From positions 1 through 8,319 of the forward strand of contig JACPSX010000234.1 in NCBI GenBank assembly GCA_016193065.1: a stretch of 8,319 bases of DNA. The letters are read 5' to 3'. Source of the DNA: Candidatus Tectimicrobiota bacterium (lineage in GTDB: Bacteria > JACPSX01). This document shows positions 1 through 8,319 of this stretch, in pieces (the stretch's first letter is position 1; each line of letters opens with the position of its first letter). Under the pieces are notes generated by a model that was given only the letters and a program-made list of their open reading frames with translations, made no database searches and was not told the origin of the DNA. The position numbers were made by a program, and so were the translations under genes.

Positions 1-994
1 GGTCGGAACCACGAGCACGTACGAGGGGCACGGCATCTCTTCCGAGGTCCTCCGGGCGTACAAGGAGCTGTGGGCCAAGGGTGAATTGACCGTGCGCAGC
101 CATCTGCTGATCAGCCCGACGCCGGGAAAGGCCCTTCCCGTACTGGATGAGATGATCCGGGACTGGGCCCCCTACGCGGGCGGCCCGGGCTTCGGCGACG
201 ACAAGCTGAGGATCAGCGGAATCTTCCTGCAGTCCGGAGGGAGCCCTCACGTGGCAAGGCTCCGCACAGAGGAAGTCCCCTACACGGCTTGGGCGGCGTA
301 TTACGTTGACGCGCCGACGCCCGAGCACTTCCGAAACGCAGCGGAGCTCTCCGCCAAATACGGCCTGCGGGTCAACGCCATTACCGCCGATCAGAAATCG
401 CTGGATGCAACGCTCGCCGCATACGAGGACGTGAACAAGACCTTCTCCCTTCCCGGCAGGCGCTGGGTTGTGGAGCATTTGCTCGAGGTGACTCCGAAGA
501 ACATCGAGCAGATGAAGCAGCTGGGGGTTATCCCGACCGTCATTCCCACCAAGCAGGTGTCGATCTCGGGCCTTGCGCGCCTGAAGACAATGCCGCCGGA
601 AAAACACGGTAATCTCGCCCCCTACCGAAGCATGATGGAGGCCGGTCTGCCCCTGGTTCTTGCCTCGGACAACGTGCCGATCAATCCTTTCAACTCTCTT
701 TGGGCGGCGGTAGCCAGGAAGGATTGGGTATCCGGCGAGCTCTGCACTCCCGCCCAGAAGTTGAGCCGAGAGCAAGCGCTCCGGGCCATGACGATCAACG
801 GCGCGTATCTTTCCTTCCAGGAGCATGTGAAAGGATCCATTGAAAAGGGCAAGTACGCCGATCTAGCCGTCCTCAACCAGGATTACCTCACGGTTCCGGA
901 GGACAGGATAAAGGACATCAAGGGCTTGATGACGATCGTGGGAGGGAAGATTGTCCATAGAACCGGCGAATTCAGCGCCATGGGAGACAGATAG
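1..994 (+). CDS. Amidohydrolase family 3 (YtcJ-like), 5'-truncated by window edge
   Basis: C-terminal 330 residues of a metal-dependent amidohydrolase; the first whole codon is at base 2 and the stop TAG is at 992-994. The TTG at 86 is internal, because the reading frame and paralogy to the complete gene at 3007-4815 continue unbroken to base 2. About two thirds of residues match that paralogue by eye, with one single-residue indel. Visible core elements are the GTTSTYEGHG segment, an EH pair (bases 473-478) and the metal-site aspartate of SDNVP (GAC at 668-670), followed by the amidohydrolase C-terminal motif KGSIEKGKYADLAVL. The usual family VHAIGDRA stretch is replaced by VNAITADQKS, so the histidine normally there is absent, as in the downstream copy. 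The N-terminal HxH site and any signal peptide lie outside the window. Substrate unknown; hydrolysis of C-N bonds is the family expectation. Confidence 0.9.
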   Translation, partial: VGTTSTYEGHGISSEVLRAYKELWAKGELTVRSHLLISPTPGKALPVLDEMIRDWAPYAGGPGFGDDKLRISGIFLQSGGSPHVARLRTEEVPYTAWAAYYVDAPTPEHFRNAAELSAKYGLRVNAITADQKSLDATLAAYEDVNKTFSLPGRRWVVEHLLEVTPKNIEQMKQLGVIPTVIPTKQVSISGLARLKTMPPEKHGNLAPYRSMMEAGLPLVLASDNVPINPFNSLWAAVARKDWVSGELCTPAQKLSREQALRAMTINGAYLSFQEHVKGSIEKGKYADLAVLNQDYLTVPEDRIKDIKGLMTIVGGKIVHRTGEFSAMGDR

Positions 995-3006: not shown

Positions 3007-4815
3007 ATGGAGGCAAGGATCAGATTGGGCACGTCCGTATGTACAATCCTGTTCTTCGTGATCCTCGCATTTACCGGTTCCTCCGGGCTTGCGGCCGCAC
3101 CCGACCCGGCGGCCGACCTGATCCTGGTGAACGGGAAGATCGTCACCGTGGACAGGAACTTCAGCATCGCTGAGGCGGTGGCCATCAAGGACGGTGTGTT
3201 CATCGCAGTTGGGACCGATCGGGAAATTCGCGGCCTGGCCGGGCCCGGAACCCGGGTCGTGGACCTCGGCGGGAAGACGGTCGTCCCCGGATTCACCGAT
3301 GGTCATGCCCACATGGATCGCGAAGGGTTGAAATACCTCTATCCCTCCCTGGAGGGAGCGAGATCCATCCAGGACATCCTCAAGATCATCGAGCGGGAGG
3401 TCAAGAACAAGAAACCCGGAGAATGGGTCGTGACGATGCCCGTGGGCGACCCTCCGTTCTATGCGGGCGTCCCGGGAACCTTGCAGGAAAAGCGCTTCCC
3501 GAATCGCTGGGAGCTGGATTCCGTTTCGCCGAACAACCCGGTTTACATACTGGGCATCTGGGGGTACTGGAGCCGGCCTCCCATCGTTTCCATCGCCAAC
3601 AGCTACGCCCTCAGGCTGGCCGGGATCACGAAAGACACCGTCCCCCCGTATAGGGGAATCACGATTGTCAAAGATCCCGCTACCGGGGAACCCACCGGAG
3701 TTTTCAGCGAGAACAGCTATGTTCCTACCGTGAATTTCAGCCTCATGAAAGTCGCCCCCCGGTTCACCCACGAGCTGAGGCTGGCCGCGCTCAAAGACTC
3801 CATGAGGAGATACAACGCCGCGGGAACGACCAGCACGTATGAAGGTCACGGCATCTCTTCGGAAGTCATCCGGGCTTATAAGGAGCTCTGGGCGAAGGGC
3901 GAATTGACGGTCCGCAGTCACCTGGTGATCAGCCCGACTCCGAGCAAGTCGGTCCGTCCCGAGCTCGAGGAAATGGTCCGGGACTGGGCCCCCTACGCTG
4001 ACGGCTCCGGGTTCGGCGACTCCATGTTGAGAATCGGCGGGATGTTCATTCAGGAGGGAGGGGATCCCGACGTCGCCAGGCTCACGAAGCAGGAGGCTCC
4101 TTACACGGAGTGGGCCGCCTACTACTACGATGCTCTGTCACCGGATAAATTCCGGGATATGGTCTACCTCGCCGTCAAGTACGGACTCAGAGTCAATACC
4201 ATCGCGGGGGATGGGAAATCTCTCGATGCCGCCCTGTCTCTGTTTGAAGAGGTCAACAAGACGTACCCCATCGCCGACAAGCGCTGGGTGGTGGAGCATC
4301 TTCAAGAGATAACCCGCGAGCAGGTGCAAAGGATGAGACGGCTGGGACTCGTGGCGACCGGCAACGCCGCCAAGCACGTTTCGATCAGCGGCGGAGCGCG
4401 CCTGAAGAGGATGCCCAAGGAGCGGCAGGCGGAGTTCACCGCGTACAGAAGCATCCTGGAAGGTGGAGTGCCCCTGGTCCTCGCCACGGACAACGTTCCC
4501 ATTGAACCCCTGAAAGCGATCTGGGCTGCAGTGACGAGAAAAGACTGGTACACGGGCGAACTTCTTGGGGCGGCGGAAAAACTCACCAGAGAACAGGCGC
4601 TCAGGGCGATGACGATCAACGGAGCCTATCTCACCTTCGAGGAGAACGTGAAAGGCTCCATTGAGAAGGGGAAGTACGCGGACCTGGCCGTCCTCAAGGA
4701 AGACTACCTGACGGTTGCTGAGGATAAGATCAAGGATATTGAGGTGCTCATGACGATCGTGGGCGGGAAGACCGTCTACAGCAAAGCGGAATTTACGGCC
4801 GGCCGGGAAGAGTAG
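3007..4815 (+). CDS. Secreted amidohydrolase family 3 (YtcJ-like) enzyme, complete paralogue
   Basis: A 602-residue amidohydrolase. ATG 3007 has GAGGAG 7 nt upstream and opens a Sec signal (core TILFFVILAF, cleavage near A29-A31). A small beta domain follows (DLILVNGKIVTVD), then the barrel with the metal-binding HxH (H100, H102 in DGHAHMD), E430-H431, and metal-site D495 in TDNVP. The C-terminal strand domain carries KGKYADLAVL. Most family members have HAIGDRA on a mid-barrel strand; here residues 396-404 read VNTIAGDGK and no histidine is present, so the metal site or proton relay is altered, as in the paralogue ending at 994. Length fits the family. Related enzymes hydrolyse C-N bonds, for example N-substituted formamides, but nothing here fixes the substrate. 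Export suggests periplasmic action with the GGT-like protein encoded just upstream. Confidence 0.92.
   Translation: MEARIRLGTSVCTILFFVILAFTGSSGLAAAPDPAADLILVNGKIVTVDRNFSIAEAVAIKDGVFIAVGTDREIRGLAGPGTRVVDLGGKTVVPGFTDGHAHMDREGLKYLYPSLEGARSIQDILKIIEREVKNKKPGEWVVTMPVGDPPFYAGVPGTLQEKRFPNRWELDSVSPNNPVYILGIWGYWSRPPIVSIANSYALRLAGITKDTVPPYRGITIVKDPATGEPTGVFSENSYVPTVNFSLMKVAPRFTHELRLAALKDSMRRYNAAGTTSTYEGHGISSEVIRAYKELWAKGELTVRSHLVISPTPSKSVRPELEEMVRDWAPYADGSGFGDSMLRIGGMFIQEGGDPDVARLTKQEAPYTEWAAYYYDALSPDKFRDMVYLAVKYGLRVNTIAGDGKSLDAALSLFEEVNKTYPIADKRWVVEHLQEITREQVQRMRRLGLVATGNAAKHVSISGGARLKRMPKERQAEFTAYRSILEGGVPLVLATDNVPIEPLKAIWAAVTRKDWYTGELLGAAEKLTREQALRAMTINGAYLTFEENVKGSIEKGKYADLAVLKEDYLTVAEDKIKDIEVLMTIVGGKTVYSKAEFTAGREE
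3820..4815 (+). repeat. Paralogous repeat of 2-994 (divergent tandem duplication)
   Basis: The segment from codon 272 to the stop corresponds codon for codon, apart from a one-codon indel, to bases 2-994. The two are co-directional and separated by the GGT gene and the DUF6305 scrap. The longest identical stretches fall in the KELWAKGELTVRSH, REQALRAMTINGAYL and KGSIEKGKYADLAVL coding regions. The true duplicated unit may extend upstream beyond the window. Confidence 0.85.
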
Positions 4816-4874: not shown

Positions 4875-5444
4875 ATGACTCGAATTACCAGAACTGGAGG
4901 GACTCTGATCGTCCTGGCCCTGTTGGGACTCTTCCCCGGGGTGCCCCTTCTGCGGGGCCAGGATTTCAAAGCCGAGCAGCCCGTCGCGATGACGGCTCCG
5001 GGGCAGGCTCCCGAGATCGCGATGGTGAACCTTCTGGCCAAGCAACTGAACCTCAAGATCAAGTCCGACCCAATGCTCCCCCCGGAAGAGCTGGCCGGCG
5101 TCAAGACCCTCATCCTCATCCTCGGGGCGAGCGGAAAGGGCCTGGGGGAAGCCGGAGTCGACTTGAGGTCCGAAACGAGGCGAGCCCAGGCCCTGATCTC
5201 CGCGGCCAAGAGAAGAGGGATTAAACTCATCGGAATGCATCTGGGGGGTGTGATGCGGCGGGGGGAAAATTCCCAGGTGATGATCGATGCCGCGGCCGCC
5301 AGTTTGGACTTCCTGGTGGTCCGTTCCGACGGCAACAAGGACGGACTCTTCACGAAGATGGCCAAGGATCAAAAGATCCCGCTGGTCCAGGTGGAAAAGA
5401 CGCTGCAAGTCGGAGAGGTTCTCAAGAAGATTTTCACTCTGTGA
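4875..5444 (+). CDS. Secreted DUF6305-like protein, candidate extracytoplasmic transport component
   Basis: A 189-residue protein. Residues 1-28 form an N-terminal signal (basic start, LIVLALLGLF core). The rest alternates strands and helices like a Rossmann/flavodoxin-type domain: TLILILGASGKGLGEAGVD (about 77-96), KLIGMHLGG (117-125), RRGENS (128-133), FLVVRSDGNKDGLF (to 159). I match it from memory to the DUF6305 family, whose members share the G-S-KGLG-AG and IGMHIGG-type motifs; no biochemical function is known to me. It is encoded 109 nt upstream of the permease, so it may act as that permease's periplasmic partner, but it is shorter than TRAP DctP binding proteins (around 330 residues). 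Bases 5130-5204 are nearly duplicated at 1029-1103. ATG 4875 follows GGAGAGG at a normal distance. Confidence 0.75.
   Translation: MTRITRTGGTLIVLALLGLFPGVPLLRGQDFKAEQPVAMTAPGQAPEIAMVNLLAKQLNLKIKSDPMLPPEELAGVKTLILILGASGKGLGEAGVDLRSETRRAQALISAAKRRGIKLIGMHLGGVMRRGENSQVMIDAAAASLDFLVVRSDGNKDGLFTKMAKDQKIPLVQVEKTLQVGEVLKKIFTL
5130..5204 (+). repeat. Intragenic partner of the 75-bp repeat at 1029-1103
   Basis: This in-frame segment encodes residues 86-110 of the DUF6305-like protein and is 68/75 identical to the intergenic fragment. It includes the same perfect outer inverted repeat, AGGGCCTGGG (5137-5146) and CCCAGGCCCT (5185-5194). Because it encodes a conserved family motif, the gene is the likely source and the intergenic copy the derivative. 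Confidence 0.8.
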
Positions 5445-5553
5445 GCGGTTTTCCTGGGTAGGAGTAGGGTCCGCAGCGTCGCGTCCGGCTCTCAAAACCC
5501 ACCTGTCCGCAACGGCCGGGATCTTCGGAAGAGCCCCTTCAGGGACCTGATCC

Positions 5554-6870
5554 GTGAGCGAGACCACAGAAATCCTCATCCAGATTGCCGCCATCATCGC
5601 CACCTTCATCTACGGGTTCAGGACCAAGCTGCCCGTGGGGATCACCATGATCCTCAGCTCTCTGGTCGTGGCCCTGGTGGCGGGGTTCGGAATTCCCCTC
5701 CAGCACGTCGTGGAGGGGTCTTTTTACTTCCTGGAGCTCATGTCCTGGCTGATCACCGGCATGGTCTTCATCAAGGTCATGGAGGCCACGGGAGCCCTCG
5801 ACGCGATCACCCGCTACCTCATGTACAAGTTTTACGCCTACCCGAGCCTTCTCCTGTGCGCGCTGGCGGTGATCGTCATGTTTCCGGCCATGATCACCGG
5901 GTCCACTCCGGTTGCAGTGCTCTCCACCGGGGTGCTGGTGGCCCCCATGCTTCTGCGCATGGGGATCCCGAAGCTGGAGACGGCCGCGATCATCGGTATG
6001 ACCGCCCTCCTGGGACAGAGCGCCCCGCCGGTCAACGTGATGATCATGATCATCGCCACCAGTACCTTCATGCCCTATGAGGGATTCATGATTCCCCTGG
6101 CGCTCACCACTTTTCCCCTGGCTTTCTTCTCGGCCATCTACCTGGGCCGCAAGTACGTGTCCTCGCAGGAACTGAGGAAGCTGGTTGATGTGGATGTGGA
6201 GGAAAAGCGATTTCCCGCCGGCTGGAAAATGCTTGTTTTGTTTCTGCCTCTGATCGTCCTTACGGTCTTGATGGTGCTCCCCCTCACGTTCCCCTTCGCC
6301 TGGCCGGACCTCGGCCTGCCGTTGGACTTCATGCTCAGTGCTTTTGTGGGTCTTTTCACGGGCCTCAAGAGGGTGAAGTTCTCGGCCGTGTCTCTGGAAA
6401 CAGCCAGGGAATCCTTTGTTGTTATGTCTCTATTTGTAGGTATGGGTGTGTTCGTGCACATCATGTCACTTACGGGTGTCAAGGGATTCCTGGGAATGAC
6501 CGCAGTAGCCCTGCCCAAGAACCTTCTCTATCTCTCCACAGCCATTGCTCCCGCTCTTCTGGGCGGACCGATTGTTCCCTTTGGAGTCGCCGCCATCCTT
6601 GGACCGCCGATCGTCTTGGCCTTTTCGGCCCAAAACGCCGTAATTACAACGACAGGCCTCTCCTTGTTCCTTTCCCTGGGATGCCTGTTCCCGCCAACGG
6701 CCTTGAGCTCTTTGTTTGCAGCCCAGATTACGGGCGTGGAAAATTATCTTTTGGTGACGAAACGGTGCTGGTTTCCCGCCCTTGTGAATGCGATTGTTGC
6801 ATTTCTGGTCATTTACTATGCGGATGGGATAGCCCAATTTCTGGGATACTTCGGGGTGGCAGTCAAGTAG
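5554..6870 (+). CDS. TRAP DctM-like / ion-transporter-superfamily large permease
   Basis: A 438-residue, strongly hydrophobic protein with about ten to twelve predicted membrane spans in two similar halves. The first half carries TGSTPVA (115-121) and the re-entrant-type motif LLGQSAPPVN (152-161). The second half carries the matching LGGPIVPFG and FPPTALSSL (379-387). Paired Pro-Pro hairpin motifs and a charged cytoplasmic linker (about 205-225, with VDVDVEEKR) are typical of the ion-transporter superfamily, and the SGS/TGS-PP pattern fits TRAP DctM subunits (usually about 425 residues). DctM proteins use a sodium gradient with a binding protein and a DctQ subunit to import organic acids. 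Here the neighbours are a DUF6305 protein and a 57-residue membrane protein instead. GTG 5554 has AGGGA 8 nt upstream. The upstream gap 5445-5553 shows no other clear feature. Substrate unknown. Confidence 0.8.
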   Translation: MSETTEILIQIAAIIATFIYGFRTKLPVGITMILSSLVVALVAGFGIPLQHVVEGSFYFLELMSWLITGMVFIKVMEATGALDAITRYLMYKFYAYPSLLLCALAVIVMFPAMITGSTPVAVLSTGVLVAPMLLRMGIPKLETAAIIGMTALLGQSAPPVNVMIMIIATSTFMPYEGFMIPLALTTFPLAFFSAIYLGRKYVSSQELRKLVDVDVEEKRFPAGWKMLVLFLPLIVLTVLMVLPLTFPFAWPDLGLPLDFMLSAFVGLFTGLKRVKFSAVSLETARESFVVMSLFVGMGVFVHIMSLTGVKGFLGMTAVALPKNLLYLSTAIAPALLGGPIVPFGVAAILGPPIVLAFSAQNAVITTTGLSLFLSLGCLFPPTALSSLFAAQITGVENYLLVTKRCWFPALVNAIVAFLVIYYADGIAQFLGYFGVAVK

Positions 6871-6896
6871 CGTCATGGTACAGGCCGAGGTGCCCG

Positions 6897-7070
6897 ATGA
6901 CTCTTCCGTTCTGGTTTGAGCTGATCAACTGGCTTTACCGGGCAATCTATCTCTACATCGTTGTCATGATGATATGGAACATGTTCCGGGAGGGAACAAG
7001 CTTGGCGAAACAGATCGGCTACGCGCTCGTCACCGTTCCGTTCCTGCTCAGGGTACTGGGCTTGAAATAA
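6897..7070 (+). CDS. 57-residue membrane protein, possible small permease subunit
   Basis: A small ORF placed 26 nt after the permease stop, with GAGG (6887-6890) 6 nt before ATG 6897; the next gene's TTG is 13 nt beyond its stop. The reading frame stays open upstream into the permease gene, but that part is a shadow. The protein has two hydrophobic stretches, about residues 12-29 (YRAIYLYIVVMMIWNMF) and 38-54 (ending YALVTVPFLLRVLG), joined by a charged FREGTSLAKQ loop. A two-span hairpin fits. It is far smaller than DctQ (about 160-200 residues, four spans) and I do not recognise a family. Position suggests an accessory or assembly subunit of the upstream permease. Confidence 0.7.
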   Translation: MTLPFWFELINWLYRAIYLYIVVMMIWNMFREGTSLAKQIGYALVTVPFLLRVLGLK

Positions 7071-7083
7071 GAGAGGAACGCCC

Positions 7084-8319
7084 TTGGAAACCACAAGAAT
7101 TGCCACGGTGAGGCAAAGCATCTTCGTACTGATCGCGATTTACGTCATAACTGCTCTTGCCACCATCTACTTCGAGAGACAACGCATCGAGGAACCGATT
7201 GTGAAGGGGCCGGGCGTGACCAGAACGGGCCGGCTGAGCGACTATTTCCCTCCGTTGAAGAAATACCCCGCAGTGGATACGGTTCTGTATTTCCTGGAAG
7301 GGGAGGAGCCGGGAGGAACAATGGCCATTCTCGGTGGAACGCACCCCGGTGAGCCGAATGCGCTGTTGGTCGCTACCCTCTTCATAGAAAGGGCCAGAGT
7401 AAAAAAGGGTCGCTTGATCATCACCAACCGACTCAACAGATCGGGATACGACGTTACAGAACCTGGAGGAGGCTATCCACCTCGGTACCACATTGCGCAA
7501 CTCAACGGCAACAGCCGCTGGTTTCGAATGGGAGGCAGGACATTCGCTCCGTTTGTCGCCTGGCCCGATCCGACAATATACGTGCACTACCCCGAAGGTC
7601 AGTCGCTGGCCTCAGGAGAGAATCTGAATCTGAATCGCAACTACCCGGGGCGCCCAAACGGCCGGCTTCCCGAAAGGGTGGCCCACGCGTTCATTCAGCT
7701 TCTAACCAAGGAGACCGCGGCTATTGCCGTGGATGTTCACGAGGCTCCTCCGGATCGACCTCTGGTTAATGCGATCTCGGCCCACGAACGGGCCATGGAC
7801 GTAGCGGCTCTCGCCGTCATGATTTTGCAGGGTGACGGGATCGATATCCGTCTGGAAGCCTCTCCCAAGGACTTGCACGGCCTCTCGCATAGAGAATGGG
7901 GAGACTATACAAAAGCCCAGGCAATTCTGATGGAGACCCCCTCGCCCATGCACGGTCCGATCCGGGGCAAGGCGACCGAGAAGCTCCTCCTGGATGCAAA
8001 GGACGAGTTCGAGCTCCGGGCGGCTAAAATGGGGCGCGTCTTTACCTCCTACGATGAAACAGGCTGGCCCATCAGCGTGCGGGCCGCCCGCCATACGGCA
8101 ACGATCATGGAGCTGGCCAAGGCCTTCACGGAGCTCCACCCGGACCGCCCTATCGTGGTCGAGAACATGCCGTCCTACAAGGAAATCAGCGAAAACGGCA
8201 TTGGCCGTTACCTCTCGGTGGTCGATGAGCCGGAGCCCCGCTTGATGCCGGGCTGGCTGAGCTTCTTCTTCAATGAGGGGCACCCGATGTGGGGGTACGG
8301 GAGCGAGACCATTGTGAAA
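7084..8319 (+). CDS. Membrane-anchored M14/AstE-like zinc hydrolase, 3'-truncated by window edge
   Basis: An open frame of 412 codons without a stop to the window end, starting at TTG 7084 with GAGAGGA 6 nt upstream. Residues 10-28 (SIFVLIAIYVITALATIYF) form a single N-terminal membrane anchor, placing the catalytic domain outside the cytoplasm. Zinc carboxypeptidase / succinylglutamate desuccinylase landmarks are present in order: HPGE (H87 and E90, first two zinc ligands), NLNRNYPG (182-189, the substrate-binding NR pair of M14), VDVHEA with H219 (third zinc ligand), and the catalytic-type glutamate E284 in LMETPSP. The family removes C-terminal amino acids or deacylates N-acyl amino acids. 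With the nearby GGT-like and amidohydrolase enzymes it suggests degradation of an N-acylated amino acid or peptide. Family assignment is good; substrate is unknown. Confidence 0.85.
   Translation, partial: METTRIATVRQSIFVLIAIYVITALATIYFERQRIEEPIVKGPGVTRTGRLSDYFPPLKKYPAVDTVLYFLEGEEPGGTMAILGGTHPGEPNALLVATLFIERARVKKGRLIITNRLNRSGYDVTEPGGGYPPRYHIAQLNGNSRWFRMGGRTFAPFVAWPDPTIYVHYPEGQSLASGENLNLNRNYPGRPNGRLPERVAHAFIQLLTKETAAIAVDVHEAPPDRPLVNAISAHERAMDVAALAVMILQGDGIDIRLEASPKDLHGLSHREWGDYTKAQAILMETPSPMHGPIRGKATEKLLLDAKDEFELRAAKMGRVFTSYDETGWPISVRAARHTATIMELAKAFTELHPDRPIVVENMPSYKEISENGIGRYLSVVDEPEPRLMPGWLSFFFNEGHPMWGYGSETIVK

Follow-up and report, generated by a model that had tools for sequence, protein, structure and literature searches.

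A conserved four-gene set beside poly-gamma-glutamate synthesis genes in a Candidatus Tectimicrobiota genome, probably a novel type of module for the transport and turnover of that polymer

We found that four genes, which encode a DUF6305 protein, a DctM-family permease, a small membrane protein and an AspA-like hydrolase, probably make up a novel type of module for the transport and turnover of poly-gamma-glutamate (PGA). The genes that synthesise PGA, a capsule polymer that is also storage-like, are known, but the literature that we searched yielded no carrier that takes the products of its breakdown across a membrane. The window analysed here is the whole of contig C220 (8,319 nucleotides) from a genome of 2.9 Mb that is 86% complete; among the relatives compared with this genome, none was nearer than domain level. 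The genes of the window follow one another on the forward strand in the order given in Table 1. The first-pass annotation had described three consecutive open reading frames, for DUF6305, the permease and the small protein, as a candidate importer, and all three proved to be real and to lie at the coordinates given. We give a probability of about 0.5 to the reading that these three and the AspA-like hydrolase are the core of a conserved PGA-linked envelope module, in which a gamma-glutamyltransferase (GGT) and the AspA-like hydrolase would trim and the permease would import.

Table 1. Features of the window (contig C220) and of the overlapping contig C235 (locus L199)
Feature	Position	Strand	Basis
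Amidohydro_3 protein, partial	2-994	+	Pfam
Secreted gamma-glutamyltransferase (GGT), 579 aa	1245..2984	+	TIGR00066
Amidohydro_3 protein	3007-4815	+	Pfam
DUF6305 protein, 189 aa, predicted exported, single alpha/beta domain	4875..5444	+	Pfam PF19823
DctM-family (IT superfamily) permease, 438 aa, GTG start	5554..6870	+	Pfam DctM
Conserved small two-helix membrane protein, 57 aa	6897..7070	+	homologues and profile; family absent from Pfam
Membrane-anchored AspA/AstE-type (M14-like) zinc hydrolase, TTG start	7084..8319, runs off contig	+	profile and motifs
77-bp overlap with the start of C235, 73 identical	8243..8319	+	end match, same genome
PgsB	L199:174-1325	same strand	TIGR04012, 301 bits, over cut-off
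PgsC	L199:1319-1759		TIGR04011, 119.5 bits, over cut-off
PgsW	L199:1756-2841		TIGR04332, over cut-off

The evidence for this reading lies in gene content, co-inheritance, linkage to PGA genes and family assignments. We searched 55 genomes, taken from relatives and from the phyla of two positive genomes, of which 30 carried DUF6305 and 25 did not. The permease of the window, used as a single-sequence query, matched exactly 30 of the 30 DUF6305-positive genomes and 0 of the 25 negative ones. The same 30 genomes were recovered with the profile of the small protein, for which 18 of them had supplied training sequences and 12 lay outside the training alignment, and again with the AspA-like hydrolase. 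The conservation on which the original proposal had been made conditional was thus without exception in this set, but its restriction to three parts did not survive, since the AspA/AstE-like hydrolase co-occurs just as strictly and adjoins the small gene in at least 26 genomes. The second sample comprised 386 genomes from across the domain and, at a small-protein threshold of E below 1e-12, contained DUF6305 in 13 genomes and the small protein in 12, with the two together in 11, apart in 3 and both absent in 372. In G287 and G437, DUF6305 was present without the small protein or an AspA orthologue, the DUF6305 gene of G437 being partial, and in G176, whose genome is fragmented, the small protein, permease and AspA-like hydrolase were present without DUF6305. 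Fisher tests gave p of about 3e-16 for the 55 genomes and about 1e-18 to 2e-18 for the 386, values that treat the genomes as independent and carry no correction for phylogeny. The shared set spans nine families and, as it was found in G007, G025, G006 and G050, which came from different phylum queries, it crosses phyla.

Gene order was examined in the neighbourhoods fetched, where adjacencies were counted by genome and are lower bounds on account of contig breaks. The complete order DUF6305-permease-small protein-AspA was observed in five lineages, namely the window and the loci L007, L182, L183 and L191. Besides the pairing of the small gene with AspA, the permease adjoined the small gene in at least 22 genomes, GGT lay within 6 kb of the permease in at least 25, and the permease stood directly beside a paralogue of the PGA protein PgsW in at least 13. 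Adjacency of DUF6305 and the permease, which the first-pass annotation had proposed to survey, was not the rule: the same genomes share the parts, but direct adjacency was found in only 6 genomes and a distance within 6 kb in 14, both as minimum counts. DUF6305 was directly beside AspA in at least 19. This imbalance suggests a different partition, which we consider quite possible, in which DUF6305 and AspA constitute one unit, a hydrolase with its periplasmic partner or ligand sensor, and the permease and small protein constitute another, so that the set would serve one pathway and not build one transporter. It is consistent with the f60 genomes, where AspA-DUF6305 and GGT-permease occur on separate contigs, and with G287, where DUF6305 has a hydrolase and a sensor kinase with it and the search for the small protein gave no match. 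However, the strict co-occurrence of all four genes in 30 of 30 genomes and their shared order in five lineages argue against this partition.

Two further kinds of neighbour were noted. Homologous sensor-kinase and response-regulator pairs stand beside DUF6305 in two lineages (L182:12197-14138 and L184:1215-3249): such a pair follows the set in G377, and a homologous one accompanies DUF6305 in G287. In addition, GGT and the permease are followed by Wza-like and Wzc-like genes at L121:2458-5816 and similarly at L123, L124, L126 and L133; a link of these loci to the export of PGA or exopolysaccharide is possible.

The best clue to the function of the module is its PGA context. The end of C220 overlaps the start of C235 with four differences, all in the last ~11 bases; the AspA reading frame runs on to a stop in C235, and fewer than 100 bases beyond it, on the same strand, PgsB begins. 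This end overlap strongly suggests that the two are neighbouring contigs, and the case is strong because the overlap lies inside a gene found once. A scan of 13 kb of C235 revealed PgsB-PgsC-PgsW, a phosphofructokinase, an oxidoreductase pair and a peptidase-like protein; PgsB and PgsC, which mark a PGA system, are thus present on the overlapping contig. Recurrent neighbours of the set of ~330 aa belong to the same family as PgsW, TIGR04332, a poly-gamma-glutamate system protein. The linkage recurs elsewhere, as PgsB-PgsC-PgsW-DUF6305-permease-small-AspA at L191, as GGT-GGT-DUF6305-permease-small-AspA-PgsW followed by PgsB and PgsC at L007, and as PgsB-PgsC-PgsW and DUF6305-permease, separated by an unrelated gene on the other strand, at L059. 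The arrangement resembles the PgsB-PgsC-PgsA/CapBCA system of Bacillus in that the source genome has contiguous PgsB, PgsC and PgsW with GGT nearby, as with CapD/GGT, and it differs in the added DUF6305-permease-small-AspA set, which is missing from most PgsW-bearing, DUF6305-lacking genomes of the same phyla. In the capBCA genes of Francisella, capA is annotated as a hypothetical poly-gamma-glutamate system protein (PMC5362203). Our literature search found no paper joining PGA, TRAP and GGT.

Other arrangements of the PgsW family were also observed. At L033-L037, L041, L187 and L189, a second PgsW paralogue (~325-345 aa) stands between GGT and the permease without PgsB or PgsC, and many genomes with this GGT-PgsW paralogue-permease arrangement carry another PgsW elsewhere. 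At L149, L150, L153 and L157, PgsB-PgsC-PgsW is followed by an unassigned protein of ~304-328 aa and another of ~365-384 aa, the latter with a weak match to outer-membrane barrels.

Contiguity with PgsBCW also fits a scenario in which the role of the module lies in exporting PGA, assembling the capsule or balancing charge, with the permease moving oligomers or counter-ions outward and GGT and AspA trimming or anchoring the chain, as CapD does in Bacillus. In the f60 group, SLBB/Poly_export and tyrosine-autokinase chain-length genes come after the permease, as does a gene for an outer-membrane protein, and it is because of these Wza/Wzc-like neighbours that we retain export as a possibility, albeit an unlikely one. 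Three observations lead us to prefer uptake. First, to our knowledge, the DctM-type carriers of known function are importers. Second, PGA systems of the same phyla manage without the module: PgsW occurs in 53 of the 55 genomes, including 24 of the 25 module-negative ones, and is a broader background that does not separate module-positive from module-negative genomes. Third, a two-component pair adjoins the set in G377, a complete genome that is probably that of Thermanaerovibrio acidaminovorans, a cultured glutamate fermenter (PMC3035242). This pair is a possible regulator of the module, and its position beside the set fits a substrate-induced uptake system.

The permease exceeded the cut-off of the large TRAP permease family (Pfam DctM, 51.6 bits against 23.8) over nearly its full length, and CitMHS remained below cut-off. 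DctM was matched by 24 of 26 permease homologues, and the source genome holds one match to the permease only. The closest solved relative, found with a 26-sequence profile, was the isethionate TRAP DctMQ chain 9pym (E 5e-4); a search of the PDB with the single sequence returned no match. E54-G55 and the APP of GxxAPP are among the invariant residues of the permease. Members of the IT superfamily have two inverted halves, each with a helix-hairpin motif. For the two-fold repeat initially claimed for the permease, the matching GxxxPP motifs of the two halves are suggestive, but the profile comparison of half against half (hhalign) was not significant, with an E of 0.11 against 0.09 for a reversed control. 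An AlphaFold2 model of the permease from two sequences reached a pLDDT of 34 and was discarded.

The likeness to TRAP transporters (DctP-DctQ-DctM; TC 2.A.56) drawn by the first-pass annotation therefore stands for the permease family, and also in that genes for an exported soluble protein and for a smaller membrane protein accompany that of the permease, but beyond this it is an analogy only. No DctP or TAXI solute-binding protein was found in the window or the adjoining 13 kb, where the soluble neighbour is DUF6305, and the absence of a DctP/DctQ pair downstream, on which that annotation depended, held throughout these 13 kb. In place of a four-helix DctQ, separate or fused, we found a protein of 57 aa with two hydrophobic segments. 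The module may perhaps work like a TRAP transporter, judging by this analogy. It differs, however, in its single-domain DUF6305 protein, its two-helix protein of 47-60 aa, its metallohydrolase and its PGA context, and it was not filed as TRAP because two of the three defining subunits are missing locally. We have filed it as a carrier of the DctM family that is attached to PGA systems and has another set of partners. An ordinary TRAP transporter with DctP and DctQ encoded elsewhere and with DUF6305 and the small frame as bystanders, to which the DctM score and the weak TRAP_fused matches of 17 of the 26 homologues would conform, is very improbable, given that DUF6305 and the small frame accompany the permease in every genome searched and that the window and adjoining 13 kb hold no DctP or DctQ.

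The small open reading frame is more than a chance one, because recognisable homologues of 47-60 aa occur in the same gene context. Its sole invariant arginine, R52, is near the C-terminal end of the second hydrophobic segment, and P48 and K57 are near-invariant. The protein matched no family in Pfam, none of 19 members matched DctQ, and an assignment as MscL was rejected, as the NCBIfam match had an E of 0.18 only. It thus represents a recurrent, unannotated micro-protein family. Small two-helix partners of carriers are known in YjcH with ActP and YhdT with PanF, which are similar in that a tiny membrane frame adjoins a secondary carrier; unlike these, the present protein accompanies another carrier family, and no sequence relation to them was found in Pfam.

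Membership of the soluble protein in DUF6305 (PF19823) was supported by an E of 6e-44 and 149.8 bits against a gathering score of 25. The soluble secreted part that the first-pass annotation had seen in it fits a hydrophobic N-terminal stretch (7-28), from which export is predicted. In an alignment of 24 sequences, the invariant residues include G84, S86, K88, G89, G91, R103, H122, R128, R129 and D156 and contain the motif GxSxKGxGxA; this motif, R103, H122 and R128-R129 are read as a putative basic anion-binding site. Its description as Rossmann-like fits the alpha/beta fold of an AlphaFold2 model (pLDDT 72, pTM 0.71), but no particular fold relative stands out. Many alpha/beta structures matched, none of them distinct, the best Foldseek E being 1e-3 and the best VIA match a glycosyltransferase (Z 9.6 over 135 residues), and we claim no relative; matches to dihydropteroate synthase (E 0.06 and above) were judged to be chance. 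The literature search found no paper that names DUF6305.

The AspA-like protein of the window fell just under the cut-off of AstE_AspA_cat (Pfam), which its homologue at L033 exceeded, and its profile matched structures of the succinylglutamate desuccinylase/aspartoacylase type (best E 8e-12). A hydrophobic segment (5-32) provides an N-terminal anchor. Among 19 homologues, H87, E90, N182, N184, R185, H219, E220 and E284 are invariant, and the HxxE...H metal set (H87, E90, H219) and the NxNR motif (N182, N184, R185) of the AspA/AstE type are both present; the protein thus retains, by its residues, a putative AspA-type metal and carboxylate-binding set. GGT exceeded the cut-off of its equivalog model with 387 bits.

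From these data we infer a substrate, a direction, a physical complex and a role for each part. Outside the inner membrane, the secreted GGT and the anchored hydrolase would act on PGA, whether the cell's own or foreign, and free glutamate or short gamma-glutamyl units. The permease, whose family is one of ion-coupled secondary carriers, would move the released units inward, with the 57-residue protein as its constant accessory subunit. DUF6305 may be a single-domain periplasmic helper that has a putative conserved basic pocket and either binds the anionic product or controls the hydrolase or the carrier. Tentatively, and with the odds leaning against it, this can be narrowed to a dedicated carrier of PGA products, a DctM-fold permease in which a DUF6305 receptor and a two-helix micro-subunit would have replaced the TRAP P and Q components, working with a periplasmic AspA-type gamma-glutamyl hydrolase. 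The co-inherited hydrolase, permease and micro-subunit provide a first functional context for DUF6305. They also suggest that quite different partners can be tied stably to a DctM-type carrier, which bears on the origin of TRAP transporters, and the probable cultured host T. acidaminovorans makes the module testable.

We also weighed whether the two amidohydrolases belong to the module and decided against it, as their homologues lie near the set in the window only and in none of the other genomes fetched. The two Amidohydro_3 paralogues flank GGT and share 215 of 326 residues. Between the first of them and GGT, an in-frame relic of 75 bases (1029-1103) is 91% identical to the most conserved DUF6305 segment (5130-5204), a sign of a duplicated amidohydrolase-DUF6305 pair.
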